Shown here piece after piece: positions 14,585 to 59,800 of a stretch of DNA of 64,000 bases. Under the pieces are notes generated by a model. That model was given only the letters and a program-made list of their open reading frames with translations, had not been told where the DNA came from and did no database searches. A program made the position numbers and the translations under genes. This DNA is from Liolophura sinensis (taxonomy: Eukaryota > Mollusca > Polyplacophora > Chitonida > Chitonidae): positions 68,670,984 through 68,734,983 of the forward strand of contig NC_088300.1 of assembly GCF_032854445.1 (NCBI RefSeq), read 5' to 3'. Position 1 is the first letter of the stretch, and each line of letters opens with the position of its first letter.

Positions 14585-14822
14585 CATGTTTATGATGTTC
14601 CAAATAATGATTCATGTATAGACACATACATTTTCCATTGTAAATCAGTGTTTGAACTGTTACATTTACCAAAAACAGACTCCTATGCATGACAATAAAA
14701 TTTTAATTTCAGACAAAATAAAAACATATCTGAAAGTCAACATTCATGAATTCACTGAACACGATTATCGAAAGTCTTCTCATCTGTTATGACCCTAAGA
14801 AACAGGGTGGACAAAAACTTGA

Positions 14823-15227
14823 CTATGATGATGGGGGTGGTGGAGGGGGTGGAGCCATGGGCGGGCCCGTTGATGTTGGAGGTGGTACCGGTGGCGGTAC
14901 AGGTGGGGGAGGGGGTGCAGATGGTGGTGGAGGGCCAGGGGTTGGGATGTGGGAGGGAGGAGCTGGAGGGGGGCCACCAGGAGGAGGCATGGGTGGAGGC
15001 GGTCTCATCGGGGGTGGACCTCCTGCCAACATCGGGGGTACAGGTGGAGGGGGTGGCATGCGTGGAGGGGGTGGCATACCCTGTCTGGGTGGAGGAGGCA
15101 TGCCTGGGCGAGGAGGGGTTGGGCCAAAGTTAGGGGCTCCTGGAGTATGTATGGGAGGGGGTGGAGGCTGGGGAAGAGAACTCTGAAGAGCTTTTGGGTC
15201 ATACTTGAAGGCAAACTGCAGGAAGAA
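14823..15227 (-). CDS. SF3A2: SF3A2 last exon, proline-rich C-terminal tail
   Basis: The terminal exon starts FFLQFAFKYDPKALQ after a CAG acceptor and runs into runs of prolines broken by Gly, Met, Ala and Arg, ending PPPSS before TAG. The GC-rich strand composition opens Gly-rich frames on the plus strand, which are shadows. The tail length (about 115 residues) fits invertebrate SF3A2; low-complexity tails of this kind vary widely between species. Confidence 0.93.
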   Translation of the reverse strand, partial: FFLQFAFKYDPKALQSSLPQPPPPPIHTPGAPNFGPTPPRPGMPPPPRQGMPPPPRMPPPPPVPPMLAGGPPPMRPPPPMPPPGGPPPAPPSHIPTPGPPPPSAPPPPPVPPPVPPPTSTGPPMAPPPPPPPSS

Positions 15228-18200
15228 CTGAAAGAGAAAGCAAATATTCAAAATTATAACATGCTACATGTTAACATACATGTGCAGTAATGTTAATAGC
15301 AAATGACGTCCATTAAGTAACAGAAATTGATCAATTTTACAAAAATCAGCTTGTTCAAGAAACCTACATGTAGCAATATTCCAGTACAACAGTATATATT
15401 ATTTTCCAAGAGAATACAACACATTAAACTACATCAACTTCCACTAGGGTTTAATAGAGTATATTGCACAGTTGAACACCATAAATATTTTTTTCTCCTG
15501 AAAGGTGGATATGATAACAAACAAGACCTGAAGCACCAACATTCACCGTGCATTATTCTATTGATTACTTATACTATGACAATATCATGATTTTGTGCAT
15601 CTGAACACTGTTTTTAGGTGTCGACCTTCACATACTAGTGTACAGAGCGTGACATCGTACATGAGGTATTTCATGAGATTGTGTCTTATTGCGGGACATA
15701 GAAATGTTAAAAGAAATGTTTAAGTTGACTACAAAGCTTGTATGAAGATGTATAAGAAAAGTGATATCAAACTGAGTGGAATATTATTTTTATCAGTGAG
15801 GGAAATCCTCACATTTCACCTTACAATAAATTATAAAATTATCTTTTCCACAATCACTGCCTAACTTTTAAGAGATCTCTGAAATTCCCAGGCTATCAAC
15901 ACAAATATCGACAGCAGGTAATCCAATCCAGATGTTCAATGCACAAGAGCTTGCTATATTACAGAATAGCAAAGTCTGAATGTCAGTTTAAACCCCATTC
16001 TCAACATAATCATGGTGCTCACAATGAAAATTCATACAAGACCATCTCTGCATGACAGATCATATTCACAAAATGCTGATTTACCTGCTTTGTGTCCCTG
16101 TTCCAAACTGACCATAACTTTTTAGAGTCTTTGTCCACTTCTCGACTTGGCACCTGAAAACACAGCGGACAGTTTATTTATTGAATTGGTGTATTGAACT
16201 ACTTGGCTAAAATGAGGAGAAACAAGAGGAACCGCAGCTAACGCTCTAGTGGGGAATGTTGCATTGATGGTCATTTTGAAAACTTGGCCAAAAAGGAGAA
16301 TACCTGGCAGAGCAAGAAAAATTGCAGCAGGACTCTAGGAGGAAATGTTGCTTTAATGGTCAACTTGAAAACTTGGCTAACATGAGGAGAGCTGGCAGAG
16401 GAACAAGAGGACTCCCAGTAGGACTCCAGGAGGAAGTGTTGCATTGGTCATCTAGAAAACTTGGCTAACATGAGGAGAGGAACTGACAGAGGAAAAAGAG
16501 GAATCCCAGTAGGACTCCAGGAGGAAGTGTTGCATTGGTCATCTAGAAAACTTGGTTAACATGAGGAGAGGAACTGACAGAGGAACAAGAGGAATCCCAG
16601 TAGGGCTCCAGGAGGAAGTGTTGCATTGGTCATCTTGAAAACTTGGTTAACATGAGGAGAGGAACTGACAGAGAAACAAGAGGAATCCCAGTAGGACTTT
16701 ACGAGGAAGTGTTGCATTGGTCATCTTGAAAACTTGGTTAACATGAGGAGAGGAACTGACAGAGGAACAAGAGGAATCCCAGTAGGACTCCAGGAGGAAG
16801 TGTTGCATTGGTCATCTAGAAAACTTGGTTAACATGAGGAGAGGAACTGACAGAGGAACAAGAGGAATCCCAGTAGGACTTTACGAGGAAGTGTTGCATT
16901 GGTCATCTAGAAAACTTGGTTAACATGAGGAGAGGAACTGACAGAGGAACAAGAGGAATCCCAGTAGGGCTCCAGGAGGAAGTGTTGCATTGGTCATCTT
17001 GAAAACTTGGTTAACATGAGGAGAGGAACTGACAGAGAAACAAGAGGAATCCCAGTAGGGCTCCAGGAGGAAGTGTTGCATTGGTCATCTAGAAAACTTG
17101 GTTAACATGAGGAAAGGAACTGACAGAGGAACAAGAGGAATCCCAGTAGGGCTCCAGGAGGAAGTGTTGCATTGGTCATCTTGAAAACTTGGTTAACATG
17201 AGGAGAAGAACTGACAGAGGAACAAGAGGGATCCCAGCAGGACTCTAGGAGGAAGTGTTGCATTGGTCATCTTGAAAACTTGGTTAACATGAGGAGAGGA
17301 ACTGACAGAGGAACAAGAGGGATCCCAGTAGGACTCTAGGAGGAAGTGTTGCATTGGTCATCTTGAAAACTTGGCTAACATGAGGAGAAGAACTGACAGA
17401 GGAACAAGAGGAATCCCAGTAGGGCTCCAGGAGGAAGTGTTGCATTGGTCATCTTGAAAACTTGGCTAACATGAGGAGAGGAACTGACAGAGGAAAAAGA
17501 GGAATCCCAGTAGGACTCTAGGAGGAAATGTAGCATAAATTGAGGAGGAAATTTTGGTGAAACCGAGGGGGAAACAAAGAATTGATTGCAAAGGGTTTTA
17601 CATAGTTGATCTACTGCATACCTCTCTCCATAAAGGTGACCACAACACAAAGGTGGTGAAATGTCCAGTAGGACAACTCTACTGGGGTTCATAGAAGTCA
17701 TTTTTGCACATACCGATCACCACTGTCTGAGCGAAATTGAGTTTTTGTTTCAGCTGAAATTGATCTGTTTTTTGTTTTGACCGAATGTTCGAGATACTAA
17801 AATTGAATATTTTTGTACTATACTATATCAGAGTAATTATCACTCCCCGTACATGAACTTAAGCTTGTCTCCTAGTTGATACTGCCAACTGATAACCCGT
17901 GCACATTGCAGTTATTGTTACATGTATTTCAGGATACTAGTTCAGTGAAGTGTGAAGACCTGCCCAGAAAGCTTACAACCTAGAGTTGTCTAGATTGACT
18001 GAAACTCACAACATGAGCAATTGCAATTGGTTGTGATGTCACCTTTAAAAAATATTCAAGTCATGAATCAGACAGAGGGGCCATGCATTAATGGCTTATG
18101 GAATAGGTGGTTGTCACTCTCAGTTTTTGAAAGGAAATGTCAAAAATGATCTAAAGAAAAAAAAAAAAGATTTGAGAAAATCAAAATCATGCAACACCTT

Positions 18201-21200
18201 ACATGTATACTAGAAACTAATGTGAATAGTGGATCCAGATGAATGTTCTGTGCACTATCTAAATTCTCTTGAAACATTGTCATTACTTGTCAAAATGAAC
18301 GAAGATTTCAATCAACGAAATCAGTTCAAAAAGGAAGTTTGACTTGATAGGGTACTAGTCACACGAATTTACTGTGAAAATCAGCCACCGGTAATGAAAA
18401 TTAAGGGATCCACAAATAGTGATTACTTGATGAAGTATAGACTACTATGATTTTTAAATCCAAAGGCCACATATTTAGAGAGTTAAAATACAAGGCTACA
18501 TCATCATGTGCTTTATGTATCAATGAATTGTCACTTTTTCCATGACCAATAGTGGAATACGCCTGGATCTCAACAACCCAAAGTCCTGCCTGGCACACAT
18601 CTCCATGTTCAGTCTTTGAACAAAAAACTCTCTTTTATAGCGAATCGATGTCGCTGCTAAATGTTCATATCTGTTTTAATTTCGCTGCTATAATAAGCCA
18701 TTTATAAAACTTCAGAGTCCCGTAAACGAAACTTGGAAGAAAACTGCACTCGCATGCAGTTATCCGCGCTACGCTAATCTCAAAAACAGAGCAATCAGAA
18801 GCCAAAGTAGGTAAGCCGAGGAGCGAGTTGGCAGAGACCAAAGAAGCGTCAGTTAGATTTCATACACCCCTCTACTTCCAAAAATTGCCTTCTTAAATCT
18901 CATCAATGGAGAGGGTCATGAAAAATTCCCAAAAAATGAAATAACTCTTAACCCGAATTTATGTAAAATTTTGAATATTTCTTTCAAAAACAACCTCAAA
19001 TTGAATATATATAACCAGTTACTGAGTTTTTTAAGTCAATCCACGGACCAAGTACAGGCTCGTCCAGAAGACTTCTAAGAGCCCCTGTTCTAGTATCGAG
19101 ATGTATTCATCTGTGTGTGTCTGATTATTAATGTTTTAAACCATATTCAAGAATATTTCACTTATGATGGTGGTCAGGCTTACAGGTGAATCAAACCCCC
19201 AAGTTATGCCAGGCACCTGACAATACTCCTAACACAGGCATGACAGGGCCACAATTCTGCCAGTATTAAGTAGTGTCACACTCACCTTAAATGCAATGGT
19301 CTCATATGGTTCTGCTGCAAACAGCAAATACTGCCACTTTTTGTCTGGGGGTTCCACTTTCTGTTCATAGGCAGACATGAACCTGTGTCTGGGGGTGATC
19401 CCTTCCACTATCTCAGGGTAGTCAATCTGACACAGAAATTTAATACTGACATTTGACAAAACTGACTGTTAATTAATATGCATTGCAGAATGTCATGTAC
19501 ATACAGAGTTTTCATATCTTGACATTATTGGAGCTAAGGTAAAAAGTAATTCAGATCACATGTACGTACAAGGTACTGGGAATATTACAGAAAGTCTGTG
19601 GAGTACAGAAAAATGGGTGCATGCGTGGACCCTACTGGGGTATTGGTGGGCCACAGCAGGGTATGAGTGGTGAGCCCTAGTAAGGTATAGGTGAACCTTA
19701 GTTGAGTATGAGTGGACCCTAGTGGTGCATGGGTGGACTCTAGTGGGGTATGGCTGGATCACAGCAGGTTATAGGTGGATCACACCGGGTTATGAGTGGA
19801 CCCTTATGGGGTATGGGTGGACCCTTGTGGTGTAGTGGTGGATCACAGCGGGTTATAGGTGGATCACAGCGGGTTATAGGTGGATCACACCGGGTTATGA
19901 GTGGACCCTGGTGGGGTGTGAGTGGACCCTAGAGGGGTATGGGTGGGACGTAGTGGATCATAGGTGCCCCAGAGGGTTACAGATGGACCCTAACGGGGTA
20001 TGGATGGACCCCAGTCGATTAATAGCGGACCCTAGTCAGGTATGGGTGGAACCTAGAATGCTATGGGTGGGGCCGCAGTGAGTTATGACTGGCCATGGCG
20101 GGTTCCGGGAGGACCCTAGTGTGGTATGGGTAGAACCTAGTGGGCTATGAGTGGACACTAGTGGAGCATAGATGGAGCTTACCCGGTGTTGAGTGAACCC
20201 TAGTGAGGTATAAGTGGACACAAGTGAAGTATGGGTGGACTCCAGTCGAGAATTGGTGGACCCTAGTGACGTATGGGTGGACTCTAATGGGATATGGGCG
20301 GATCCTGTGGGGTATGGTAATAGCAGACTGAAACATGGGCGTCTTTTTATTTGCAGTAGGATGATGCTTCTGGGCACTTTGCCCACTTCTACTACCACAA
20401 TGCACTGTAGATTTAGGCCGTGATGTCATCATGATATAGGTTTATTACCTGGAAAAGAAGACTCTGCTGTGAGGATTCCTCATCTCTCTGCTTGGTTACT
20501 TTGTAACCAGGGCGACCGATTTTCACAAATTTCTTGATGTCAACTCTGGGCTTTTCTGGAGCAGGCTGAGCTGGGGCTTCCTTAGCCTCCTTGGCTGCAC
20601 GTCGAGCTCTGAACACAAGCAATCGTAAGGAAATTATTCTCAACAATAAAATTTGCTTTCTGTCCACTTCCTTTAAATGCATATAAGACCACTACCTGAT
20701 GTGAGCTTTAAAGACAGCTTATTTCACTTAACACATATTTTAAGCTAAATTGTGTGCAATATTGATTCTCTCTGCAAGATTCTGGCCTATTTTTATCAAA
20801 TGTCTCGTACGTTAAGTCCAAAATTCAAACACAGCTACCATAAACATGTTTTCCTCTAGGACATATAAAATTTGTACACTGATCCTTTACTGCAGAGCAA
20901 TGTACCACGCACAACTGGACTTCTTTCCTGTTCTAGGTTTGACTTTTATATCCAACTGTAATTTGCAGTAAGTTGTGAGTTGCTTAAAGGATACATGAAA
21001 AGGTATTATAGATGGTTTGCAATGGCAGACATCTTTGAGGTAAGTTTGTGTATAGTGCCCATTGTATGCCCTTACCAGCCAACGGCCTCTGTCCAGTTTA
21101 GGTCACCTCTAACAATAGACACCCAGTGGGTCATACACAAACTTACCTCAAAGATGACTGCCACTGCAAACCGTCTATAAAACCATGAGTGCATGTATGG

Positions 21201-23291
21201 TTTTAAGAAAAATGAAGAAAGATATGCTACCACAATTTTTTTTTTTCATTTTTGAGGCATATTTTTTATTTCTTAATGATTCCTCTATTTTTCACATATT
21301 TTCTCTCAATAGTTGAAAATATTCAGAAATAAAGTCATCGATGAACATACTGGAAATGGGGGACCAGCACAGCACCCCCCATTCTGGCTCTCCTTCTAAC
21401 GAACCTGTTTTCACAGCTATCATCACTGATGTGACCACAGCAGGCTTGTTAATTTCTGGACTGATCAATGGGGCCTTAAGAAAACTGTACTTTAAGGCCA
21501 TTTTTATGGCCCAAAAAGAAAGTTAAGAGGCTATTTTGTACTCTTAAATATTATATATATATTTATACATATATATATATATTGTATTCAGAAAGAAATT
21601 GAAGTGTTTCTCGTATCCCTGAATAAAAACAAATCATGGAATAGCCTAGAAACTCACAGACCTCATTCACAAACAAACTTCATCCCACTTTTAGCAGACT
21701 ATTTAATAGTATTTTCCTTTATATTTAGGCATTACATACTGTAATATTTAAGAAAATATAAGTATAACACTTACAAATTTGCCTGATGCTTTTTCCCTTG
21801 AGTGTGAGCTAAATAACTGCCCTGGAAAGAAAATTGTCACAACTGTTCAAGGTATCGCGTATTTTTAAATAGTTGCAATTTTGATTCCTCTGATCAAATG
21901 AAGATAAACTTTTCCACACGCTTATTTATTTATTTGATTTCTATTAGTCAAGAATATTTCACTTATACACAGTGGCCAGCACTGTTGAGGGAGGAAACCG
22001 TGGAAAACCCACGACCATCTGCAGGTTGTTGACAGGCCTTCCCATGTATGGCCGCAGAGGAAGCCAGCATGGGCTGGACTTGAACTCACATCGACTGCAT
22101 TGGTGAGAGGCTCCTAGGTCACCGCGCCGCGCTGCTTTTCCACATATATGAAAAAATCAGTAATGGGTTCTCAATTGTGAAGCATGAAGAGCAATCTCAA
22201 TGCCACAAATTAGGTGATTTAGCCAAACGATGCAAATCAGTAATAAGAGAAATTCTTATAAAGAAATTTTCATTTTCTTGCATTTTGGGCATTTATTAAC
22301 ACTTTTCAGTCAGGTGTATTGTAAAATGTTCAACCCCAATATTCATCATATTAAATAAGTTATATCAGCTATTTCCTGAAAACATTCAGGTAACTTTCTT
22401 TCAGTAATACAGTTGTATATTTAATAATTTGTAACTTTCCATTTTCAATGTTCTGTGATAAATGGCTCAATTCCCTTCACCAAAGATTTCACTTACCTCG
22501 TTGTTGTGTAGCGTAAGACAAAGTTTGCACTCATAAGATCCCAAGTGATTTTTCATAAAATATGGGTCCTACAATAAAAATCAATACATAAATGAACCAC
22601 TAAATAAAATTGGCTTTACAATATTTCAAAGTTCACAATAAGAACATGAAAAGCACAAAGACATTACAGTGATATCCATGAGTGACATCCCAGTGATAAA
22701 TGACATCTGTTTTACTTGCTTTTTTTCAGCAGGGCAGTATCCCTGTTTATCTGAATATCATTATTTTGAAATTTGATAACCAACTCTCAGAAAAACACAT
22801 TATTTAGAAGATTAATTTAATCTTGTTTAATCTTGCTTCTAGTGTGAGTGTCCCACAATGTTACGTCTTCAGGGTGAAATTTGTACATCAAGACATACAC
22901 ATTGACTTGAGTCCAAGGGTGGAAAAAGCAGGCTTTAGTAATTCTATTTCAAGCTATAACCTCTATGGATATGTTGTTTAATCCTTTGATAAGGTTCACA
23001 TTTGCAGTTTTATCGCTCATTACAAATAAAATGATGCCATGAAATTAAATGAACATATGTATATAAAATATCAAACGCCGTGTTGTTTTTATTTATAAAA
23101 GCATTCTCATTATTAACTGATATAACCCGACTTTCTCTAAACATGAAATACCAAACAGCAGAAACCTTATTTAAATCAATAGTCTCCAGAGCCAGCTGTC
23201 TCAGCCTCTCCCGGCGGTCACGATTGGACTCGGAGGCGGAGGCCACACCTCCTGACCCAGTTTTCCCTCCAGCTCGATGCTGGAAATCCAT
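14823..23291 (-). CDS. SF3A2: Splicing factor 3A subunit 2 (SF3a66/SAP62), complete, 7 coding exons
   Basis: SF3A2 is a subunit of the U2 snRNP SF3a complex and acts in the nucleus in branch-site recognition and prespliceosome assembly. Coding exons, in transcript order: 23166-23291, 22497-22568, 21775-21821, 20449-20608, 19286-19426, 16085-16153, 14823-15227. All junctions are GT-AG, and the phases close to 1020 nt (339 residues plus TAG). The N-terminus MDFQHRAGGKTGSGG is the family signature. A matrin-type C2H2 zinc finger is split over exons 2 and 3 (C56, C59, H72, H78). FVKIGRPGYKVTKQRD (exon 4), RHRFMSAYEQ (exon 5) and LWSVWNRDTKQFFLQF (exons 6-7) are highly conserved family segments. 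The last ~115 residues are proline-rich, as in the family, but lack the GVHPPAP heptads of vertebrate SF3A2. The start is fixed by that N-terminus. An acceptor at 23319/23320 implies a non-coding first exon upstream. Assignment is near certain. Confidence 0.97.
16195..17560. repeat. 91-bp tandem array in SF3A2 intron 6, about 15 copies
   Basis: The unit is about 91 bp, marked by AACATGAGGAGAGGAACTGA, GGAATCCCAGTAGGACTCC and GTGTTGCATTGGTCATCT. Spacing is exactly 91 bp between the copies checked (16467, 16558, 16649). Substitutions are few in the centre and more frequent at the edges. Open frames through it are by-products of the period. It begins about 40 bp upstream, in transcript sense, of the exon at 16085-16153. 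Confidence 0.95.
19600..20320. repeat. 21-bp minisatellite in the SF3A2 intron after exon 4, about 34 copies
   Basis: Diverged 21-bp units near GGTATGGGTGGACCCTAGTG. Read in the SF3A2 sense, one frame gives heptads such as TRVHPYP and TGVHPYF, but with stops and shifts. It lies within the intron 19427-20448, between conserved exons 4 and 5. Confidence 0.9.
21006..21180. mobile_element. MITE-like element, 175 bp, long terminal inverted repeats
   Basis: Starts TTATAGATGGTTTGCAATGG and ends CCACTGCAAACCGTCTATAA, with arms of about 48 bp at roughly 90 percent complementarity by eye. Each arm contains GAGGTAAGT, a perfect 5' splice-site string, in outward-to-inward orientation. Located in SF3A2 intron 3. 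No coding capacity. Confidence 0.8.
21921..22136 (-). mobile_element. SINE-A copy in SF3A2 intron 2
   Basis: The tail side is TTATTTATTTATTTGATTTC; the body has AAGAATATTTCACTTATAC and GAAGCCAGCATGGGCTGGAC; the head region is GAGAGGCTCCTAGGTCACCG. The order gives minus-strand orientation. Confidence 0.85.
22497..22568 (-). CDS. SF3A2: SF3A2 exon 2, first half of the matrin-type zinc finger
   Basis: This 72-nt phase-0 exon encodes 24 residues including YECKLC, the two metal-binding cysteines of the U1-like/matrin zinc finger. Its histidine half (HTQGKKH) is on the next exon, 21775-21821 (47 nt). The flanking sites are a TAG acceptor and GAG/GTAAGT donor for exon 2, and a CAG acceptor for exon 3. 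The finger is known in this family to contact the U2 snRNP core; nothing here looks altered. Confidence 0.95.
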
Positions 23292-36300: not shown

Positions 36301-39300
36301 AGACCAGAGGGAGTACAGACATACAAACTAACATTATACATATATTAATTATATACCATATTCCATATTTTCATTATATTCATTCCAATCAATTTACTCA
36401 TAGATTTAAATTTTACTGTCCTTGACCTCCATGAAGTTCCCAAGATAGCAGTGTAGGAAGCATGTTTTCATACACCCAGATTCAATGTAAACCATATCTT
36501 GTAGCAGGGTTTTGTTTTTGTGGAACAAAGGGTGAAGTTTCATTTAAATTCATTTACAAAACATTGTTTACTTCTTAATATTCGTGTGATACATTGTACA
36601 CATGTAGTATGATCAGATGATAGCATTTCTGTATATCTGACGTTATCTTTGTGTTTCAGATCATATTACAGGGGCCTCCGTGGCTCATTTGGTTAGTGCG
36701 CTAGCGCAGCGTAGTGACCAAGTAGCCTCTCACCAATACGGTTGCTGTGAGTTCAAGTCCAGCTCATGCTGGCTTCCTCTCCAGCAGTACGTGGGAAGGT
36801 CTGACAGCAACCTGTGGATAATCGTGGGTTTCCCCTACGCTCTGCCCGGTTTCCACCCACCATTACAACTCAAAATACTTATGACATGTTATCTCTGGTG
36901 TATTTCAGATCATATTACAGCTCAAAATGCTTAGGACATGTTATCTCTGGTGTGTTTCAGATCATATTACAACTCAAAATGCTTACAACATGTTATCTCT
37001 GGTGTGTTTCAGATCATGTTACGGCTCAAAGTGCTTATGACATGTATCATTCTATGGTGAGTAAACAGGCCCATACTAAGTTACATTTTTAAGTTTAGGT
37101 CTTGGACACGGAGTGTGTACATACACCTGGTTTTCACTGTTCATTGGAGCAGCGGTGACATTTTGAGGTTTGAGGACGTTTATAGCCGACCATTTTGCTT
37201 TCCACCAATATGACTTGCACGTTTGTGGTTTATGTGGAAAAGTTTGTCAGTAAACGTGGTTTACCCAGGGATCCTCAGGTTTCCCTACCCACAAAACAGG
37301 CACTTACCACCATCATATGAAGAAAAAAAGCTCTTGAACATGGTGTTAATTCTTCACCTGTTTACAAGATGCTAATTCAAGCATATTCTGAAGGCATTAT
37401 TCTGTGTAGACTGCTAAAATTATACTTTTTTTGGAAGTTCTAAAATTGGCCAACCCAATCAAAGTAGTTTTGTCTCCAAAATCAAAATAAAAATATGTAT
37501 AAATTCCGCTGAAAGTTGCTCTTTTGTATGCAAAAAGGTTGAGGAATTAGGGCAATTAATTAATCAGCCTACAATTAGATCTTATATGGCATGTGGCTGT
37601 ATACATCTGGCTAATGCATTTGTCAGACAGTTATGCCTTTCATGGAGTTTTTGTAAAGTCTGTATTTTTATGTGGTACGTACATGCTGGAAGACCACATA
37701 CATTTGCACTGAGAATTATGAACCCACACCAGCAACTTATAAGGAAGAAATCTAGGAGTGGACACATCTTTGATAGTGGGTGGGATTTGTCCAGAAACTC
37801 AAGGGGCTAAATGATATTTACAATAATTCAATCTAAAGTTGCTAATGTGGTATTTTTCCCATTAATAAATCATTAATTCAATCATTCCAAACTACATGGT
37901 TTTGTTTTGTTTCAGACTCCACGTATCAGTGAGGGCACTTTTTCCATTTGGCTGTGCATACCTGATGAGATCCTCCTTTTCATCTTGTCACACCTGTCGT
38001 TAGCAGACCTGGCCAGGTGTGCCATGGTCTGTAAGCAGTTCTATAGAGTGGCCATGGACCAGTCTCTCTGTAAGTTTGTGTACACATTAAAAAAAAGATT
38101 TAGGAGTAGAGGTTGTACTGAAGAGCCATACTGTCAGTTAAAATTTAAATTTTCCTCCATTTGGCTGATTTCAGACTTTTTTGTTTGAAGTCTGAAAAAT
38201 GAAAAGCAAGTGATTTCACAAGAACAGGTGATTGCTAATGTAATTTGGAGATAGGGTATGGTATTTTCAGACTTTCTTGAGAAACTGCAGACTTATTTCT
38301 GATCATCAATTCCCTTAAAAATGAATAAATATTGTCTGCTGGCATCAAAAGAAAATGGATCGTGTTTTCCAAGATTTGTTTTTCTTTGTGTAAAAATATT
38401 ACAAAAATATTGTTTGATTGTTGGTTGAAGGGATTTTTGTGGAAAGATAACTCAGTTCCCATCTGTAATATCTCTGGTTTTCTCTTTTCCAGGGAAAAGT
38501 ATTTCTATGACAAAACGTCAGGATCTCTCAGATGATATGCTGGATGTGATTGGACGACGCCAACCAATCAGCTTGTCCCTTATTCAGTGTCATGGTAATA
38601 ACATCACTGCTAATGGTTTACAGAGGATGTTCCAGCATTGTGGTAGCTACTTGGAAGTGAGTGAAATGGCTTAGATGGGTGATACAGATCTGAAACAGTA
38701 GTTTGCAATAAGTTTTTGACCCTAGGATCACCAAGCTGCCTTTATAGACTAAAGTCAGACTTAGTTTTAACTTCAAAATAGATTGCTGGCTAATATTGTG
38801 ACTAACATAAGGGATTTTTACTTTAATACTGAGAGTCACTGTAAAACTTTTCAACAAAATTGAGAGTTAATTTGTAAGTTTAAATCTAACTTCACAGGTA
38901 ATACTACAGTATAATACAGTATACAGACAGCTTTGTGAGCTTTTTGAGCTTCGTGATGCCTGAGATAATTCCAATGAAGTCGTTAGTTTGACAAGAATGC
39001 ACATTTTTCAACATATTATTTGTGTGCAGAAAGTGAGATCTTTCAGTGTGGTTGTACACTGTATATTTTATGATGCAGTATTTTCAAGGTACAGTTTGAA
39101 GTCTTACTCAAATGAACTACGGAAGCGCACCTCATGTTAACTGTGTGCGAATCATCATGTTTAAATGAATAATACTGGAATATTCAGCTTGTTCTGCCTT
39201 GGTTGTTAAACACAAGATCCATTTGTGTTTACCAGGAACTGAACATCAGTCGGTGCAGTCGTGGGGCACTGGTGGGGGATGTGGTGCTGAGGCAGGCCTC

Positions 39301-42300
39301 TGTACAGTGTAAACACCTGACTCACCTAGACGTCAGCTGGACATATGTGACAGATAGCGGTCTCTCTACAATCTGCTCCACAGCTCACAGGTAAATAACT
39401 CACCCTTACAGGCAAACAGCTCACCCTCACAGGTAAACAGCTCACCCTCACAGGTAAACAGTTCACCCACACAGATAAACAGCTCACCCTCACAAGCAAA
39501 CAGCTCACCCTCACAAGCAAACAGCTCACTCGCACAGGCAAAAGCAGCTCACCCGCACATACAGACAGCTCACCCACACAGGTATACAGCTCACCCTCAC
39601 AAGCAAACAGCTCACCCTCACAAGCAAACAGCTCACTCTCACAGGCAAACAGCTCACCCTCATAGGCAAACAGCTCACCCTTACAGGTAAACAGCTCACC
39701 CACACAGGCTTGCTTGTTTGCTTGTGAGCTTACCATCACTCACAACTCACCCTAACAGGTGAACAGCTAACCCCTACAGGTGAACAGATCACCCTCATTG
39801 GTAAACAGGTAAACAGCTCATCCTCACAGGTAAAACAGCTCACCCTCACAAACCAACAGCTCGCCCTCACAGACAAACATCTCATTCGTACAGTTTAACT
39901 GCTCTCTCTCACTGGCAAACAGTTCACCCTTCCAGGTAAACAACTCATTTCTACTGGTACCAGCTCACTCTTACAGGTGAATAGCTCACACTTACAAGTG
40001 AATAGCTCACTTTGTCACATAAACAGCTCACTGTGTCAGGTAAATAGCTCACTGTGTCCAGTAAACAACTAACTGTTACAGGTAAACAGCCCACACAGAT
40101 GAACAACCCAGTCATATAATTGAACAACTATCTATCTTCAGAACACTGAGTCTCACCAAGTCTTCACTGCTGGTGCTAATTTTGCAGGAAATTCTAATTT
40201 TATGTTTATATAAACAGTTACACCCATCCAGGTAAACCACTCACTTTTACAGGTGAATAGCTCACTGTGTCAGGTAAACAGCTCACTCTTACAGGTAAAC
40301 AGCTCACTTTTACAGGTGATTAGCTCACTTTTACAGGTAAACGGTTCACCCTTTTACAGGTAAACAGCTCATGTTTACAGGTGTATAGCTCACTGTATCA
40401 TGTAAACAGCTAACTCTTACAGGTGAACAGCCCATACAGATGAACAAATCAGTCATACAAGTGAACAACTATCTATCTTCAGAACACTGAGTCTCACCAA
40501 GTCTTCACTGCTGGTGCTAATTTTGCAGGAAATTCTAATTTTATGTTTATATAAACAGTTACATGCAGTACACGAGCAGTCTAAAGATTGTAAGTTTTGT
40601 AGAGGGCTGCAGTAGATTTTATCAAACCAGCTACTCATATACGAATGAAATATTCTGGAATAGGACAGTAATACAGTAGTTAAATAGATTTTAGTAAATT
40701 AACTTATCTGGACATGTATGTGATGTCCTCATACTGCATTTGTCATTTTTAGCATGTTTCGTTAAATCCATGTTTGAATGATTGCTCGTTGCAGACTGGA
40801 GAGCGTGTGTATAAATGGATGCCCGTCAATTACCAACAATGGCCTGGAAACATTGCTCCGCAAGCATGGGAAGAGGTTTGTTACAACTACTTCGCAGATG
40901 TAGTTTCCTGTACATACAGAAATGAATGAGGATAACAAGTCTCAGTGCAGTGCTGACCAACAGATGAATATTAAAGCATTAGAAATGTTGAAATGTTTGA
41001 TCTAATAATTTTAAGGCTTTTTGGTCTGCAAACTATCAATATTTTAGAATCTTCTGTGAATCTTTCACAGTCGGCCAGTTTTGGTTTCGTTTTGTATTAC
41101 TTTTTTCTAAGTGGTTTTGACTTGTGATAATGGTATCATCATTATTTGCAGGTGAAATTTTAATTTGAAAATTTGAGAAAACCGTGACCACTCATGGTTT
41201 TGAATGAGAGAATGATCTTGAGTAGCTCTCAGCACTAATATACTGCATCGCCTCCAACGTTTGGTATGCAACAGCGCAATTTCAGAAGCACATGAAAACA
41301 TTTATATCATTTTTCTGATGCCAACACTTAAGTTTTTTAACTTCACAAAATAACTTTCAAGCAGCCATATAATTTGGATGAATCAAGCATAATCAAGGGA
41401 AATGTGTCACGTGAAAAATGTTAAGCTTTATTTTGTGAAATGCATTATCATGATAATGCTGTATGCACTATCGCCAATAATGATGAACCAATTTACTACA
41501 GTTGTATTTTTTTTTTTTTTTACAAAATATGATCTCTGCTTCCATTGTAGCCTAAGGGTGTTAGCGCTCTGTGGAAGTTTTAACATGGTCCCTGCCTCCA
41601 TTGTAGCCTGAGCGTTTTAGAGCTCTGCGGATGTTTTAACATGATCTCTGCCTCCGCTGTAGCCTGAGAGTGTTAGAGCTCTGCGGATGTTTTAACATGA
41701 TCTCTGCCTCCATTGTAGCCTGAGAGTGTTAGAGCTCTGCGGATGTTTTAACATGATCTCTGCCTCCATTGTAGCCTGAGAGTGTTAGAGCTCTGTGGAT
41801 GTTTTAACATGATCTCTGCCACCATTTTAGCCTGAGAGTGTTAGAGCTCTGTGGATGTTTTAACATGATATCTGCCTCCGTTGTAGCCTGAGAGTGTTAG
41901 AGCTCTGCGGATGTTTTAACATGATATCTGCCTCCATTTTAGCCTGAGAGTGTTAGAGCTCTGTAGATGTTTTAACATGATCTCTGCCTCCATTTTAGCC
42001 TGAGAGTGTTAGAGCTCTGTAGATGTTTTAACATGATATCTGCCTCCATTTTAGCCTGAGAGTGTTAGAGCTCTGTGGATGTTTTAACATGATATCTGCC
42101 TCCATTTTAGCCTGAGAGTGTTAGAGCTCTGTGGATGTTTTAACATGATCTCTGCCTCCATTGTAGCCTGAGAGTGTTAGAGCTCTGCGGATGTTTTAAC
42201 ATCAACCAGACGGGGATTAGGAGTATAGCTCACAACTGCCACAATCTGCTTACCCTCAACCTGGGACAGTGCTATAAGGTGAGTATCCCAGGCTCAGTGG

Positions 42301-45300
42301 AGCGTAAACCTCATTAATACAATCTTCATCTAAAACAGTTCTCATTCATTTCATCCTTATCTGGCATTTTATCTAAAACAGTGCAATTTCCAAAAGTAAG
42401 CAATGCATGAAAACTTATTTCCAAGTGGTCTTTCAGCAACCTGCGGATGGTTGTGGGTTTCCACCAAATGTTGCCCGGTTTTCCTCGACCATAATGTTGG
42501 CCATTGTAGTGCAAGTGAAATGTTCTTGAGTATGGCATAAAACTCAAATAAAATCAAATAAGTAAGTAAAAAAATATTTCCACTATTTGTGAAAATGGAC
42601 TTTTCCTGGGCTCTGTCCTGTTTCCTCCCACCATAATGCTGGCTGTCATCATAAAAGAGAACTGTTCTTGAACACAGTGTAAAACAAGACTCAAATAAAT
42701 AATCAAAAACATGATGGAATAAAGTAAGATATGTCTATTGCATACACTATCTTTTAATGCAACACATAGCTTACCAATAACCTGTGAATTTTACTGATAT
42801 CACTTGTTAACCAGAGCTTTGCTCCCATGTCTGTTGTGACATTTTCTACATATGTAGGCGAATTGCTACCATTCCTTCATACGCTGTTAGAGCTGCTGTG
42901 AGCATCCTAAAAGGTTCCCAGGTCAAAATGCACATTTGGCTTAATGTTAGAGAGGTGTGTTGAGGTTTTTTGGGAGGTGTGAGGATGTCCTACTGAAAAA
43001 ATATAAGTTTCACTATCAAAAATGACATTTAGTGACATTTCTGATTCTGATTCCTTCTTGATGTATATAGAATTTATCTATAAGCTTGATTCTGTCGAGT
43101 GTGCACTTTTATTTCTTGAAGAGATTATTGTACCTTCGTGTACCTGCCACTCTTCCAGTTGTAGAATCCTGCTGCTCCTCAGTTTATCACATTTAAATGC
43201 GAAACCAGTACATCAAAACTGCAGTAGTACATTATATGCTGACTAATATTTGCTTGGGTTGCTTGTTTGTTTCAGCTAACAGACTCCTCTGTGGCAGAAG
43301 TGACTGGTTCATTGCCCAGACTTGAAAGTCTTGACATCAGAGGGTGTAACAGGTCAGTTTCATGGAAGCTTCTCTTTTAAGTACAATTTCATGCAACCTG
43401 CTTGGCTGGTTACCTCCCCCTGACGTCAGATGGCGCTAATCGCTCCAGATGTAGTGGGCAGGCACAGTATACAAATTCACCTTTTTACCTAGCGTCATTG
43501 TTTCTGATACAGCAACTTATGTAACTGTTCCTGTTTTCTATGTGCATAGCTTAGTAACACCACATGTTTTGACATTAGGTCAAATCATAGAGACATCACA
43601 ACAACCCTTTCATAGTTGTACTTTGTTGAACGTGCTACTATATGTAAATGACGATTCGTATGGGAGATAGCTTTGTAATGTACCTGATGTCACTGTCAAG
43701 GTATGCAGGGAACCAGACTAGCAACCTGCTTCATTATGTCAGGTGTGTGTTGATGTAATTGACCTAAACTTTATTGTGTAAAAATCGCCATCGCATAAGT
43801 TAAATATTGTTTAGTTCTGCATAAGGACAAGTCATATTTATAAATATGATGTAAAAATGCACTTTTTGAGAAGCACATAAGGCCTTAAAATGCTATGTTT
43901 GATGCCAAGGACTTTTTCTAAAATTTTTCTAATAGGAAATTGATCAGACTTCCCATAACACTCTCAAGTCACTGTGTAAGGTAGATGAATCATTGAGACT
44001 CAAGCAAAATATCACTTGTAAAATGCTTTAAAACTTTAGGTGATATTTAGTAATGTCAGACTGAAGGTTAGAGCATTTGTCTTGCACACAGCAAACATGG
44101 GTTCAGTGATGAGATAGGTCTTGTCAGAGACTTCAGAATTTACATTTATTGTAATTCCTTGCTGTTCAGCCAGTGAACCCAGTAAAAAGGGATATGCCAT
44201 TCCCTACAGGTTGTCCAGGTGTCATTATAATGTGGCTGGAAGAGCTGTGTGTATGGTCTTGTACTGGAATAGAAATCAAACTGCTGTATGTCACATGTAA
44301 AGGGATTTTCACTTTCAAAGCAAACTGAAAAAAGTACTACTTGTCACTGAGGTAATGATGCATTATCTGTTTAATGTTATTAATAAATGTAGCTGTTTTG
44401 TAAATATGGATATTCATTCCCCTTATTCAGCTGGGGTTTTTTTTCTTTTTCTTTTTGGTGATGCTATTCAGGTTAGAGATACCAGTGTGCGGAAGATCGT
44501 GAAGAATTGTCCTCGGTTGAGCAGTATAGCCCTAGCCAACTGTCCTCACATCTCTGACGTGGCTCTCAGTGAAATTGCCACCTACCTGCCAGGCATGAAG
44601 TACGACGTTCCTTATGTCTGAATGATTACTGTGTGAACCGTAAAAACTTCTAGTTACAATAAACAGTAAAACCTGTTTAAAACTGATCTAGTTTCCAATT
44701 CGATGTTGTTTCATTGTGAGCTAGATCACACTGTACACAGAATTAGATTGGATCTATATTAATTTTATGGTCTGTCAGCAACCTGCAGATGGTCGTGGGT
44801 TTCCCCCGGGCTGTGCCCGGTTTCCACCCCCATAATGCTGGCCGTCGTCGTATAAGTGAAATATTCTTGAGTACGGCGTAAACTGCCAATCAAATAAATA
44901 AATAAATAAATATTCATTTTATTTTTATCCAACTTCATTATATTGCTGGAGAAGGCAGCAGAAATTATATTAATTTCATGATGTTATTCTCATGCTTTTC
45001 TTTAAAACTGTCTGTCATGATTATAATTCTATGCTTTATCTGTCAAAAATATTATCAATTTTCAAAAAAAAATTTTTTTAAAAAACCAGGCCACACTGTG
45101 GTTAAGTTTTTCATATTAATTGAATACCATGATTCTCATTGGTCATTGGTTCTGTAATGATAACTGCTTACAGAATTTTCTAATTGTCAAAATTTTGTGT
45201 GCAGATACATTTTGTGATCTTTCAGAATATGTTGACAAAAAATCATGCATAAGTTTTGCATAATAACATTTAGCGTGGAATATAACATCTCTGAATTTTC

Positions 45301-47364
45301 TTGTTAATGTTTAGGTGGATTGATCTTTGTGGCTGTAAGAACATCACTGACGAAAGCCTGCGGACTTTGGCTAAGAACTGCCCTAACCTGTACTACCTGG
45401 ATATCAGCTCTACCAGTTGTACAAAGAAAAGGTATACTAGCAAACATCATGCACTTGAAAGTGTAGCAAATGATATTGTATTTCAACTGAAATTTGGTAT
45501 GCAAAAGTGCACTTTCAGAAGCACATGAAGGCCTTAATATGACACTTTTTTTGCCAACACTTTAAGATTTTCTGATCAGAAATTAAATCAAACTCCACAA
45601 AAAAGTTGAAGTGACCCCATAAGGTGATTGAATCAACAAAGAAATGTGTCACTTGAAAAGTTCTAAACTTCAGGTGAATTACAGGATTTTGCATGGTATT
45701 TGAGCTTTTCTTCCTCATAAGAAAATAGGGAAAGGGCCAGTTTGTTTCTTTATCTAACTGGTGCTTTATGGTGTGCTAAAGAATGTTTCATTTGTACTGA
45801 GGCAAAAGAAATCTAGGGAAAAAATCACACATCATTAGAGAGGTACCTGACAACCCTGCTTACATTTTAATGTAAATAAATACTGCTGTCCAACAAGATA
45901 GAGACAGGAGAGAGGGCAATCAGTTTTCTTTGGAAAAAATGCGTGGCGGGAATCCCTCTACTTCAAGTTTCTTCCCAATATTTGATGGAGAGTTATTCAA
46001 CTTCGGTTCTGGTAGAGTTATTTTTTTTTTTTGTTTTTTTTTTTTGTTAGTTTCTTTCCAGTTTTTTTGTTTAATGTTTTTTTTGTTGTTTAATGCATCT
46101 ACTATGACATTCTTGTCCTGTAAGTTACGATTTCTTACAGGAATGGAAGTAAACAAAAACTATTTTGTCTTTTCCAGCATTTTGGCCCTTGCTGCTCACT
46201 GCAGTAAGAAACTTGAAGTAGCTAAGCTGAATTTTCTATCTGATATTGATGAGAACAGCATACTACGACTAGTAAAGGCTTGTACAAGGTGAGATTTTAG
46301 TTGGTTAAAATTGATGAACTTTCAGCGTGTCCAGAAATACATGTAGTTACAGGTGTTATTAAAATCATACCATTGACATGAATACGAAAGGGACAATTTG
46401 AAAGCACAGGTGAAAAATTTTTGTGTTTGAGGTTTTGTCATATTCACATACTTGTAGCTGCAGTAGTCTTTATTATTCAGCCGGTTGTCTTTATTATTCA
46501 GGCAGTTTGTCTTTATTATTCAGGCAGTTGTCTTTATTATTCAGGATTATGGGTATTTAGTTTCTGGATAAAGTCATGTTTGACACTGTAATACCACAAA
46601 ACCACCCTTTTTTTGTATCATCCGGATAAGACATTACCCTGCAGAGTAAAGGATATACAGGCGCCATTCCTTCGCTACACTAATCACTGCATACTGTAAC
46701 AAGGCAGCTTGTATCAGTGATTCAAAGGCAATCAAATGTGTGTTGTATATCTACATTTGTCTAACAGTAGCAGCTTTTAGAAAAGGGGTTGTCAGCATTT
46801 GACCAATCACATGCGCCTGTACCAAAGTAGATAGGATTTAACATTCTCACCTTAAAATTTGTCCATGTTCAGTTTTCAACGCTGGCTGGCTGTCTGTTTG
46901 CAGTAGTGGTTGAGTTTAGTGAAGGAAAATAGCATACATGTAGACTAAATCCGCTTCTGTCCACCAGGTAATTAGACATTCGGCACCAACAGTCGTTGCA
47001 GTGTTGCATGATGAAGTTGAATTACAAAATTGTCCTCATGAACATTATAAATGAAATTTGAACTTCAGCAACCTTTTTCTTTATGACGCTGGCAGATTGC
47101 GCCTGGTGTGACTTCCATGACTATATGTAGTGTAGAGATACCGTCACCATGGAAAATTTAGTCGACACAGTGTTGCCACACCTTTGTTAAACAGGCCCAC
47201 GTTTTTATAGGGATTTTGAAATTTCGTTGTGAATATTATGTAGTAATATGTTTCATTTTGATCTCAGTTTAAGCACCCTGCATCTGTATGGCTGTAAAGG
47301 TGTCCAGACCCTGGCGGACAAACTGAAGAAGGAGAGGCCAAACGTTTCCGTGGAGATGGGCTGA
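31566..47364 (+). CDS. F-box/leucine-rich-repeat protein with N-terminal zinc ribbon, about 1640 residues
   Basis: Coding exons: 31566-33307 (the exon itself starts 31541), 33832-35505, 35801-36063, 37013-37056, 37916-38069, 38493-38656, 39236-39390, 40795-40875, 42167-42278, 43276-43356, 44472-44599, 45315-45431, 46178-46288, 47268-47364 (TGA). Here the non-coding first exon is counted as exon 1, so the F-box is exon 6. All junctions keep frame with GT-AG sites; the only problem is the donor of exon 11 (see finding). Domains: residues 1-580 Ser/Pro/His/Tyr-rich and probably disordered; C4 zinc ribbon near 707-724; acidic and basic low-complexity stretches to ~1230; F-box ~1255-1293; amino-acid/cysteine-type LRRs ~1340-1640 (LxxLxLxxCxxITDxxL). 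FBXL proteins bring substrates to SCF (Skp1-Cul1) ubiquitin ligases. I do not recognise the orthologue, so the substrate is unknown. The start MESMKG has a good context, and the frame is open upstream to the acceptor. Confidence 0.87.
33832..35505 (+). CDS. F-box/LRR gene, zinc-ribbon exon
   Basis: The exon joins the previous one in phase 2 (N-R-RRQGATDVKEL) and ends CTC AGA AG/GTGGGC. It carries CTECSALNKSYMSWCGNCG (residues ~707-725), a CxxC-x10-CxxC zinc ribbon resembling RanBP2/DZR-type fingers that often bind ubiquitin or RNA; the ligand here is unknown. It also has an acidic run (DEDEDGDE) and a Lys-rich stretch (SERKKSLKGKIKK). The plus-strand ATG at 33731 lies in the intron and is not the start. 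Confidence 0.85.
36660..37048 (+). repeat. 52-bp tandem duplication of the exon 5 acceptor, 4 copies, SINE in copy 1
   Basis: The unit is 20 nt of intron end (TTATCTCTGGTGTGTTTCAG) plus 32 nt of exon start (ATCATATTACAACTC...). Exon-like starts lie at 36660, 36909, 36961 and 37013. The last is the real exon 5 (44 nt, donor ATG/GTGAGT). Spacing is 52 bp between copies 2-3 and 3-4. Between copies 1 and 2 it is 52 plus 197 bp, exactly the SINE with its 6-bp target duplication. Confidence 0.95.
36671..36861 (+). mobile_element. SINE-A insertion with ATTACA target-site duplication
   Basis: Begins GGGGCCTCCGTGGCTCATTT (A-box-like) with GCTGTGAGTTCAAGTCC (B-box-like), as in a tRNA-derived head, and ends GGTTTCCACCCACC without the usual 3' third and tail. 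ATTACA occurs at 36665-36670 and 36862-36867. Removing 197 bp restores a clean 52-bp repeat. Confidence 0.93.
37916..38069 (+). CDS. F-box exon of the F-box/LRR gene
   Basis: After a TTTGTTTCAG acceptor this exon reads CIPDEILLFILSHLSLADLA then RCAMVCKQFYRVAMDQSL, ending CTC T/GTAAGT; the final Trp is completed by the next exon (T/GG). This is a textbook F-box: LP-like start, LxxIL, LSxxDL, VCKxFYRxAxDxSLW. It should bind Skp1. The LRR exons follow directly (38493 onward), the canonical FBXL arrangement. Confidence 0.93.
38493..47364 (+). CDS. LRR-coding exons of the F-box/LRR gene
   Basis: Nine exons encode about 350 residues of tandem cysteine-type LRRs, each exon roughly one to two repeats. 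Recognisable repeats include LTHLDVSW..VTDSGLSTI, LESVCINGCPSITNNGLETL, LRVLELCGCFNINQTGI, LLTLNLGQCYKLTDSSV, LESLDIRGC, ALANCPHISDVALSEI, WIDLCGCKNITDESLRTL, LDISSTS and LHLYGCKGVQTL, ending SVEMG. The repeats probably form the curved substrate-binding surface. Three of the introns between or just before these exons hold the junction-derived tandem arrays described below. Confidence 0.9.
39386..40450 (+). repeat. 21-bp donor-derived array in intron 8, about 45 copies
   Basis: Starts at the exon 8 donor itself (CAGCTCACAG/GTAAATAAC) and continues as units GTAAACAGCTCACCCTCACAG with variants. Many units keep CAGGTAAA, a strong 5' splice-site string. A stretch that includes the edge of the array is duplicated at an offset of 341 bp (40122 and 40463, ACAACTATCTATCTTCAGAA). 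Confidence 0.95.
41240..41440 (+). repeat. Dispersed repeat D, copy 2
   Basis: Shares TTGGTATGCAA, TTTCAGAAGCACATGAA, GATGCCAACACTTAAG and AATGTGTCAC with copies 1, 3 and 4. Lies in intron 9. Confidence 0.65.
41531..42202 (+). repeat. 56-bp tandem array of the exon 10 acceptor, 12 copies in perfect register
   Basis: The unit is 20 nt of intron end (GATCTCTGCCTCCATTGTAG) plus 36 nt of exon start (CCTGAGAGTGTTAGAGCTCT...). Exon-like starts are at 41551, 41607, 41663, 41719, 41775, 41831, 41887, 41943, 41999, 42055, 42111 and 42167. All are exactly 56 bp apart, with only substitutions between copies. The twelfth copy is the real exon 10. Confidence 0.97.
42420..42567 (+). mobile_element. SINE-A, 3' half
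   Basis: CAGCAACCTGCGGATGGTTG, TTGCCCGGTTTTCCTCGACC, TGTTCTTGAGTATGGCATAA, then an A-rich tail. Confidence 0.8.
42600..42712 (+). mobile_element. SINE-A, short 3' fragment
   Basis: GGGCTCTGTCCTGTTTCCTC, CCATAATGCTGGCTGTCATC and a degenerate AACAAGACTCAAATAAATAA tail. Confidence 0.75.
43850..44060 (+). repeat. Dispersed repeat D, copy 3
   Basis: AAAAATGCACTTTTTGAGAA, GCACATAAGGCCTTAAAATG, TTTGATGCCAAGGACTTTTT and ATCACTTGTAAAATGC align with copies 2 and 4. Confidence 0.65.
44769..44913 (+). mobile_element. SINE-A, 3' half, well preserved
   Basis: TCTGTCAGCAACCTGCAGAT, GGGCTGTGCCCGGTTTCCAC, GGCCGTCGTCGTATAAGTGA, GAGTACGGCGTAAACTGCCA and (AAAT)n tail. Confidence 0.88.
45460..45690 (+). repeat. 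Dispersed repeat D, copy 4
   Basis: AATTTGGTATGCAAAAGTGC, ACTTTCAGAAGCACATGAAG, TTGCCAACACTTTAAGATTT and AATGTGTCACTTGAAAAG; starts just inside intron 13. Confidence 0.65.
46466..46546. repeat. Short tandem repeat, about 25 bp x 3-4
   Basis: Repeats of GTCTTTATTATTCAGGCAGT. Lies in intron 14. Confidence 0.85.
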
Positions 47365-52311: not shown

Positions 52312-52715
52312 AAGAACAGTGGCTGCGTAGCTTATATCCGACTTTGCGAACGTAACCTTTTCAAAAAGATATTTTTTAAATCTATGTTTTCGGACTAATA
52401 TTGCTTGGTTATTATGCGTATGAAAATAAAAACAAAAGACACATACAAAAGAACAGTGGCTGCGTAGCTTATATCCGACTTTGCGAACGTAACCTTTTCA
52501 AAAAGATATTTTTTAAATCTATGTTTTCGGACTAATATTGCTTGGTTATTATGCGTATGAAAATAAAAACAAAAGACACATACAAAAGAACAGTGGCTGC
52601 GTAGCTTATATCCGACTTTGCGAACGTAACCTTTTCAAAAAGATATTTTTTAAATCTATGTTTTCGGACTAATATTGCTTGGTTATTATGCGTATGAAAA
52701 TAAAAACAAAAGACA
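52312..52715. repeat. 137-bp tandem triplication, nearly identical copies
   Basis: Copies start AAGAACAGTGGCTGCGTAGC at 52312, 52449 and 52586, spacing 137 bp, with essentially no differences seen. The third copy ends early, before TCCTTTG. Very recent duplication or an assembly effect. Confidence 0.95.
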
Positions 52716-56800: not shown

Positions 56801-59800
56801 TGAGACTGTGAGACCACTGAAGCCAATCCCGAGGGACAGGAAAATCATCACTACCTTGCCCACCCGTTGAAAGCCTAGTACAAAGAAGCATATAGCCTCC
56901 ACTCCAAATCCTGTAGGGGGAGAAACGAAAATTATTCTTAGCATAACATAATAGAAAATAAAGAAATACCTACAACACTCGAGTTGAAGAAATACCTATA
57001 TTAACACACATGTTAAATAAAGGTACGGCCTAAGATACAACTTGTGTTATATACTCTCCAGAATACATCTTCCAACCTTCATTCCGATGATCCGCCATAA
57101 ACAGCCTGAAGGATTTGATGACACCATTTTGAAAATCTTTCAAAGAGACAGACGACATTGACCATTGTTGCGCCATTGTTGCACGCGCCATAAGAGTAGA
57201 GGCCGAGTGATCTACATCGCAAATAATAGCATTCCCACGAAAAACACCTTGCTGCACCATAACTACATAATGGAGTGAGTGAGTGAGCGCTTGGGGTTTA
57301 ACGTCGTACTCAACAATTTTTCAGTCATATGACGACGATCATTAGGGTGCATGTACGTGTCTCCTTGCTGCAGGACGGATTTCCACCGCTCTTTTATTTA
57401 GTGCTGCTTCACTGAGACGACTTGCCGAAGGCAAGTAAGCCGCCCCGCCCGAGCCATTATACTGATATGGGTCAACCAGTCGTTGCACTATCCCCTTCAT
57501 GCTGAGCGCCAAGAGAGGAAGTTACAACTTCCTTTTTTTAAAAGTCGTAGGTGTGACTCGATCAAGGATTGATCCTGGATCTACCGGTCTACCAGTTATT
57601 GCACTTACAGGGAATATAGTAATATGGATAACTGCACATGTGTGTTTAGGTGATGAAAACTGCGAAGCAAAGAAAAATAAGAACAAAACTTGATTCTCTC
57701 TAATTAAGGTTCATATTATAAGTTAACACCCTATCGATTTAGCAGAAGTCGTGAAATATACCTTTTCCAAAAATGAGCATATGCAGCGTACGTAAAACGT
57801 ACGTACTTGTGACTTATGCCGCTGAGTGAGCTTCTCTTCCTTATCTTATGATTACTGGCATTCTGTTGTGAAGCTGACGCCGTATTAAATTAATTACCCT
57901 AGACCTATATAAAACTGAAGCAAATTTATCGTGTGAAAAACTTCACCTTTACATTTCTTTTGACACACAAACTGTAATCATAGCGCTATAAGGCCTATCT
58001 GTAAGATGCGAGAACAGCCATAGAGGCCGCAGAAAGTTAAGTAACACTTACCGCCACAAGTTAGCAGTTTTCTAACCACTGTAGCATTCAGCATGTTATC
58101 CTTCATGAGGCAGTCAGCGATGTAACCGCTACTAAAAGCCACAACTGTCATGAGAATGTGCGGGATCGAGGACAACATGCCGTTCTGTAGGAGAGATCAA
58201 GTTCGTCAAGATTAGACAGAGACGTTAGCAATAAACCGAACAATGTCGTTTACTGAGGTTACCCTGACATATAAACAATAAGCCGAACAATGTCGTTTAC
58301 TGAGGTTACCCTGACACATAAGCAATAAGCCGAACAATGTCGTTTACTGAGGTTACCCTGACACATAAACAATAAGCCGCACAATGTCGTTTACTGAGGT
58401 TACCCTGACACATAAACGATAAGCCGAACAATGTCGTTTACTGAGGTTACCCTGGCACATAAACGATAAGCCGAACAATGTCGTTTACTGAGGTTACCCT
58501 TACATATAAACAATAAGCCGCACAATGTCGTTCATAGAGGTTACTCTGATAAATAAGCAATACGACGAACAATGTACTTCGTGGAGGTTTCAATAAGACA
58601 TAAGGAATAACGACTAACAATTACACTGAGACATAAGCAATCAGACGAACAATGTCGTTCATGGAGGTTACACTGAGACATAAGCAATCAGACGAACAAT
58701 GTACTTCGTGGAGGTTACACTGAGACATAAGCAATCAGACGAACAATGTACTTCGTGGAGGTTTCAATAAGACATAGGGAATAACGACTAACAATATCGT
58801 TCATGAAGGTTACACTGAGACATAAGCAATCAGACGAACAATATCGTTCATGGAGGTTACAATTAGACATAAGCAATAAAACGAACAAAATTGTTCATGG
58901 AGGTTACACTGAGACATAAGAAATCAGACGAACAATATCGTTCATGGAGGTTACAGTGAGACATAAGCCATCAGACGAACAATCTAGTTCGTGGAGGTTA
59001 CACTGAGGCATAAGCCATCAGACGAACAATGTAGTTCGTGGAGGTTACACTGAGGCATAAGCCATCAGACGAACAATGTGGTTCGTGGAGGTTACACTGA
59101 GGCATAAGCAATAAAACGAACAATATCGTTCATGGAGGCAACACTGAGATAAAAGCTGAGATACAATGTCCTAAAATATGCATATCGTTAAAATATGCAT
59201 TTGTTTACTGGTACAGATTGCTATAACATGCCCATATATATGTCTGTTCACAAAGGGATGTATAACTGTCTAAGAAGTTTTTTTGAAGTGTTCACTGGTT
59301 TAGGCGAGAATAGGCGAAAGAAAAACATGGCAACATCCTACTTCCATACATTGCCGCTGGTTGAGTTACATCATGAAGCTATGGATTGCATGGTTATGAA
59401 TACTATTTTTTTTATTTATTTGATTGGTGTTTTACGCCGTACTCAAGAGTATTTCACTTATACGACGGCGGCCAGCATTATGGTAGGAGGAAACCGGGAA
59501 CCCGGGGAAAACCCACCACCACCCGCAGGTTGCTTACAGTTCTTTACACGCACGACAGGAGAGAATACTATATAATATAGCCAATACGCATATCGGTAGA
59601 TTCATGTATGTACATAATTTCAGCTAAATGTAAGATTTTCCACTGAAAAAGGACTATGTACTTACCTCGGCAATGCTGTAGTTAAAAGCGTTTAGGTAGT
59701 AAGGTTCGTTGGTCAGCATCAATATGAAAACGAAATTACGGGCGATATTGCACACGCATAGAGATATCACAGGTAGTGACGTAAAGATAGAGGCCCATGG

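Follow-up and report, generated by a model that had tools for sequence, protein, structure and literature searches.

Tandem copies of a splice junction in a chiton F-box/LRR gene: a probable mirage-type minisatellite

In the chiton Liolophura sinensis, one exon is preceded by a row of tandem copies of its own 3′ splice site. The copies lie in a 64,000-nucleotide stretch of contig NC_088300.1 (positions 68,670,984 to 68,734,983; hereafter the window), and a first, sequence-only reading of it saw either a splicing brake or a neutral expansion. The locus raises the question of how the right copy is chosen in splicing. The exon that it borders is real, as had been supposed. Exons D–N (Table 1) splice into a single open frame that reaches a stop in the joined translation. 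A Pfam search of this frame returned F-box-like (9.4e-16) and leucine-rich repeats (LRR), and the best PDB match of the product by sequence is FBXL2 (2.3e-48). Judged by these matches, the host is an F-box/LRR gene with an intact readable part, which suggests that the array is tolerated. Exon I, at the end of the array and labeled exon 10 at the outset, is the ninth exon located in the gene. Upstream, three long open frames (A, B and C) are probably part of this gene as well; a Pfam scan of A and B gave no match.

Table 1. Exons of the F-box/LRR gene and elements of its junction arrays (window positions)
Feature	Position	Strand	Basis
Insertion, presumably SINE-like, in first exon-D decoy; ATTACA either side	36671..36861	+	by eye; ends approximate
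Second array, 52 bp, 3′ junction of exon D	36862..37045	+	TRF and alignment
Exon D, real, 44 nt	37013..37056	+	gene model, acceptor scoring
Exon E	37916..38069	+	gene model
Exon F	38493..38656	+	gene model
Exon G, real, closes TCACAG/GTAAAT	39236..39390	+	gene model
Third array, 21 bp, 5′ junction of exon G (CTCACAG/GTAAAC), degenerate, interrupted	39384..40431	+	TRF and site count
Exon H, upstream of the 56-bp array, ends in phase 2 (AAG AG/GTTTGT)	40795..40875	+	gene model
Run of 15 T just ahead of copy 1	41507..41521	+	sequence
Eleven decoy junction copies, 56 bp each	41531..42146	+	TRF and copy alignment
Copy 12, frame-keeping junction (20 nt intron, 36 nt exon)	42147..42202	+	copy alignment, translation
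Exon I, real, 112 nt, LRR part, ends TATAAG/GTGAGT	42167..42278	+	gene model, open frame
Exon J	43276..43352	+	gene model
Exon K	44477..44599	+	gene model
Exon L	45315..45431	+	gene model
Exon M	46178..46288	+	gene model
Exon N	47268..47364	+	gene model

Copy-by-copy alignment of 41531-42202 gave exactly 12 copies of 56 bp without indels, in the strict register described earlier, and TRF agrees (41529-42202, period 56, 12.0 copies, 0% indels, score 1145). Each unit consists of 20 nt of intron end, closing on AG, and 36 nt of exon start. The AG is kept in 12 of 12 copies and hence in all 11 decoys; the acceptors had been given as TTGTAG or TTTTAG, which is correct for 10 decoys, copy 3 having CTGTAG. 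Mean pairwise identity is 0.929, and neighboring copies share 47 to 56 of their 56 bases. The most diverged copies are 1 and 2, with five differences from the consensus; copies 3–11 have 0–3 and copy 12 has one. Over the 12 copies, exon halves carry fewer differences than intron halves (13/432 versus 16/240, p 0.03), a pattern that might stem from constraint or from exchange with the coding copy. When the genome (609,464,459 bases, 632 contigs) was scanned with a 22-base core of the unit, allowing at most two mismatches, all 12 matches fell within the array. The T run ahead of copy 1, presumably the original pyrimidine tract, is now separated from the last AG by over 600 nt.

Tandem arrays are prone to misassembly, and an array at another locus (L040, below) is interrupted by a run of N, so an assembly artefact has to be weighed. 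The 56-bp array, however, is free of N and its copies bear distinct substitutions. HiFi reads are reported for the assembly in a passage of the Liolophura genome paper (PMC11068029), which named the species L. japonica before its authors corrected it to L. sinensis. We regard an artefact as extremely unlikely.

When translated in the phase of exon H, each of the 11 decoys gives 19 codons and then a stop inside the next copy, just as the TGA noted at the outset had implied. A premature stop ahead of later introns leads, by an established rule, to mRNA decay. Five introns follow exon I in the gene model, so decay of decoy-spliced mRNA would be expected. Acceptors were scored with a small matrix built from 18 further acceptors in the window. 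The true site scored 4.59 and the decoys 0.85 to 5.95; copies 1 (5.95) and 9 (5.76) exceed the true site, which makes some use of decoys plausible, and copies 4 and 5 equal it. Local splice-site strength was therefore rejected as the discriminator. Since decoy 4 is the true site letter for letter from -34 to +36, wider context must decide the choice. The true acceptor yields the shortest exon (112 nt, as opposed to 168 to 728 nt from the decoys), which would agree with exon definition.

A brake or rheostat might be built from such parts: decoys would compete with the true site, part of the transcripts would gain a stop and be degraded, and copy number would set the output of the gene. The AG and the stop common to 11 of 11 decoys fit this scheme, as do the decoy identical to the true site and the two that outscore it. 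Its probability depends on how similar arrays are distributed and how their decoys have fared, and is given with those results.

Two other properties of the array were considered. A candidate branch point, TTAAC, lies 24 nt ahead of the AG, in the exon half of the preceding copy. Because a branch-point motif is found within the same span at 47% of random positions, an exon-supplied branch point was downgraded as strong evidence. RNA of the whole array (41531-42202) folds more stably than any of 20 shuffled versions (z -5.2), and two-unit pieces, in which adjacent exon halves pair together, give z -2.3 and -2.9. Among nine pieces from nine other arrays, L040 also folds strongly (-4.3); the remaining eight range from -1.6 to +1.5, and RNA structure was thus rejected as a general feature of junction arrays. 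Within the 56-bp array there are no pairs of inverted repeats of at least 12. An Rfam scan gave no matches at the gathering score, and a scan for bacterial promoters and terminators, not relevant to animal DNA, stayed at about chance level.

The same gene carries two further junction arrays. The acceptors of exon D end at 36659, 36908 and 36960 (decoys) and at 37012 (real), and the first of these decoys carries the insertion that we take to resemble a SINE. At the 5′ junction of exon G, 20 AG/GTRA sites, the real one included, occur in the 1,065 bases of 39376-40440, compared with 3 in 3,027 bases of intron sequence elsewhere. Translation reaches a stop from all 3 exon-D decoys and from all 19 exon-G AG/GTRA decoys.

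The window holds other repeats. Between exons M and N, at 46460-46545, the intron has four units of 21 bp; each contains TTTATTATTCAG, which resembles an acceptor, and no exon is copied. A gene on the minus strand at 14820-23290, presumably related to the splicing factor SF3A2, which it resembles, has large arrays in its introns at 16325-17536 (91 bp) and 19621-20317 (21 bp); by eye, both stop short of the junctions of that gene. Away from the F-box/LRR gene, the stretches 52312-52715 and 58229-59156 hold an array of 137-bp units that match at 100% and, nearby, two arrays of 47-bp units.

Junctions were then sampled across the Liolophura genome at 60 exon loci, 30 with a myosin head and 30 with a kinesin domain, the kinesin family having been picked before any myosin locus was examined. 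A junction was scored as positive when at least two further junction-spanning copies lay in its flank, a rule formulated once the loci of both families had been retrieved; at L032 and L041, arrays adjoining the exon were left out of this scoring. One of 120 junctions dropped out. Junction-spanning arrays were found at 5 of the 119 testable junctions (95% interval 1.4–9.5%), a rough rate because the position of each junction was set close to an HMM edge by means of a donor consensus and a simple score for acceptors. The positives were the myosin loci L026 and L034 and the kinesin loci L048, L061 and L072. Four were among 59 5′ junctions and one among 60 3′ junctions (p 0.21). Outside this count, four additional 10-kb myosin regions (two of them, L041 and L042, chosen after arrays had been seen in L032 and L034) yielded a 31-bp 5′ array at L039 and a 32-bp 3′ array at L040. 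In L040 the 32-bp units (1683-3506) precede the myosin P-loop exon, and the locus contains 46 exact TTTGTAG/GTTTGAG acceptors including the working one. No yTnAy motif lies ahead of the L040 acceptor; every adenine in the 100 nt upstream belongs to TTTGAG or TAG. Periods of the junction arrays in myosin and kinesin genes run from 31 to 73 bp (L026, L034, L039, L061 and L072 at 5′ junctions, L048 at a 3′ junction). In the same genome the haemocyanin beta-sandwich family, which is molluscan, has eight matches inside 12 kb, as suits a mollusc.

The same rule applied elsewhere was positive at 360 of 2328 points placed at random in introns and at 0 of 359 exon-interior points (a single copy was seen at 1/359). 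Junctions are struck less often than intronic points (p 0.0003, with points within a locus not independent). Tandem-array coverage, pooled over both sides, is 1.3% at 20–60 nt and 3.1% at 0–20 nt inside the exon match, and outside it rises from 3.8% (0–20 nt) to 8.6% (40–80 nt), 12.8% (160–320 nt) and 19.1% (640–1280 nt). Taken separately, the two sides have 5.9% (5′ splice site) and 1.7% (3′) at 0–20 nt outside. No peak of array coverage was seen at junctions, only a steady rise away from the exon, although the edges are ends of HMM matches and a narrow peak would blur. The plain reading is that introns are rich in minisatellites, the tail of which spills over splice junctions.

This distribution also bears on whether duplication is targeted to splice junctions by a mechanism tied, for example, to transcription or splicing. 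Such targeting would account for three junction arrays in one gene and for array ends near exon edges at several loci. Three among about 26 junctions, however, have a probability of 0.09 at the sampled rate, and are not remarkable. The steady climb of coverage from the exon edge outward and the lower rate at junctions than at intronic points, with the same dependence among points, likewise count against it. As there is no spike in coverage (a very narrow one would be blurred by the HMM-match edges), targeting was rejected as the main reading; we think it unlikely.

We also asked how decoys have changed. Ten arrays were pooled, each compared with its own consensus: 28 of 306 positions in decoy splice dinucleotides depart from it, and so do 334 of 4660 positions in the rest of the unit (p 0.21); the test is rough, since copies within an array are not independent and two of the three exon-D decoys were scored. 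In seven arrays the dinucleotide is less variable than the remaining positions, and in three it is more so; these three include the array at exon G, with an intact GT in 19 of 31 decoys, and that at L034, with one in 7 of 15. Neither upkeep nor removal of decoys is clear in this pooled test. With no clear retention of decoy dinucleotides, an insertion sitting in an exon-D decoy, and similar arrays in myosin and kinesin genes at 5′ as well as 3′ junctions, we give the brake little credence. Of the two options offered at the outset, then, the frame logic of the premature stop holds, and the sampled rate, the lack of a peak and the dinucleotide counts favor the neutral side.

Arrays made of splice junctions had been noted as no standard repeat class. 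Such arrays are on record, however: tandem repeats of intron–exon boundaries are described in amphioxus, where they were named mirages (passages in PMC3087553 and PMC3902484). These passages report them in Adh3, BflGb6 and BflGb9, along with PGBD5 repeats. Amphioxus mirages are tandem units of 10–160 bp that span a 3′ or 5′ boundary, keep AG or GT intact in many units and are homogenized within clusters (PMC3087553, PMC3902484). The chiton 56-bp unit likewise spans an exon–intron boundary and falls in that size range, and AG or GT is intact in 127 of 153 decoys over the ten arrays. Both kinds of boundary are affected in the genome, as the sampled 5′ and 3′ positives and the three arrays of the F-box/LRR gene attest. 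According to the same source, the center of an amphioxus cluster is homogenized and its boundaries are excluded from homogenization, lengths differ between haplotypes, and RT-PCR suggests that regular splicing is undisturbed (PMC3087553). The differences are that the host is a mollusc rather than a cephalochordate and that an array here has up to 46 exact acceptor copies (L040). The chiton arrays were read in a single genome assembly. No mollusc example of mirage-type arrays turned up in searches of an open-licence library, and under repeat terms the chiton genome papers PMC11068029 and PMC12005716 yielded no passage on junction arrays. By boundary position, unit size and intact dinucleotides, the chiton arrays are of this described kind and place it in a second animal phylum.

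For the amphioxus globins it was proposed that copies turn into real exons or introns (PMC3087553), and the complete junctions within the chiton copies would suit such a nursery. In the 56-bp array, however, the unit length is not divisible by three and each decoy leads to a stop. A recruited copy would therefore disrupt the frame, and we consider this outcome very improbable here. Two other precedents are partial. Human CBS 844ins68 duplicates the intron 7/exon 8 junction, and the distal site is strongly favored so that the insert is removed (in a passage of PMC2630376, which terms the sites donors). It shares with the 56-bp array a duplicated 3′ junction, of which in the chiton the distal copy alone gives an open frame; it differs in being a single 68-bp duplication rather than an array. 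In intron gain by tandem genomic duplication, a duplicated exonic AGGT makes a new intron (as set out in part of PMC3443670). There too, local tandem duplication produces extra splice sites, but the 56-bp units contain the end of an existing intron, which has been lengthened.

We conclude, with a probability of roughly 80%, that the 56-bp array is a mirage-type minisatellite that has overrun a splice junction and is spliced out as intron, tolerated rather than selected as a brake. The recurrence of such arrays in unrelated genes, the missing coverage peak, decoy dinucleotides that vary like other positions and the insertion in the first exon-D decoy all point this way, as does the amphioxus precedent of mirages with regular splicing by RT-PCR (PMC3087553). 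A short stretch across the intron–exon boundary would have been duplicated in tandem, and the copies would then have expanded as in other minisatellites. The last copy, adjacent to the complete exon with its 5′ splice site, is probably the one used, and the array would leave with the intron. Exon definition may make the choice of acceptor, favoring the short exon, and the exon half of every copy may supply the TTAAC branch point to the next, for which the motif is weak evidence.

It is conceivable, if doubtful, that junction minisatellites are common enough in chitons to give many genes unstable tandem decoy sites, and that individuals with different numbers of copies differ in how accurately they splice and how much transcript they make; if true, they would be a genome-wide source of heritable expression variation. 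On the reading preferred here, of a tolerated minisatellite, the arrays extend junction minisatellites to a second animal phylum, and the rate among sampled junctions suggests that they are common there. They are also natural experiments on splice-site choice, in which nearly identical acceptors or donors follow one another, as many as dozens in a row; in the arrays translated, one of them keeps the frame. With one frame-keeping site per translated array, exon definition and a rule by which the first site wins can be set directly against each other with RNA reads.
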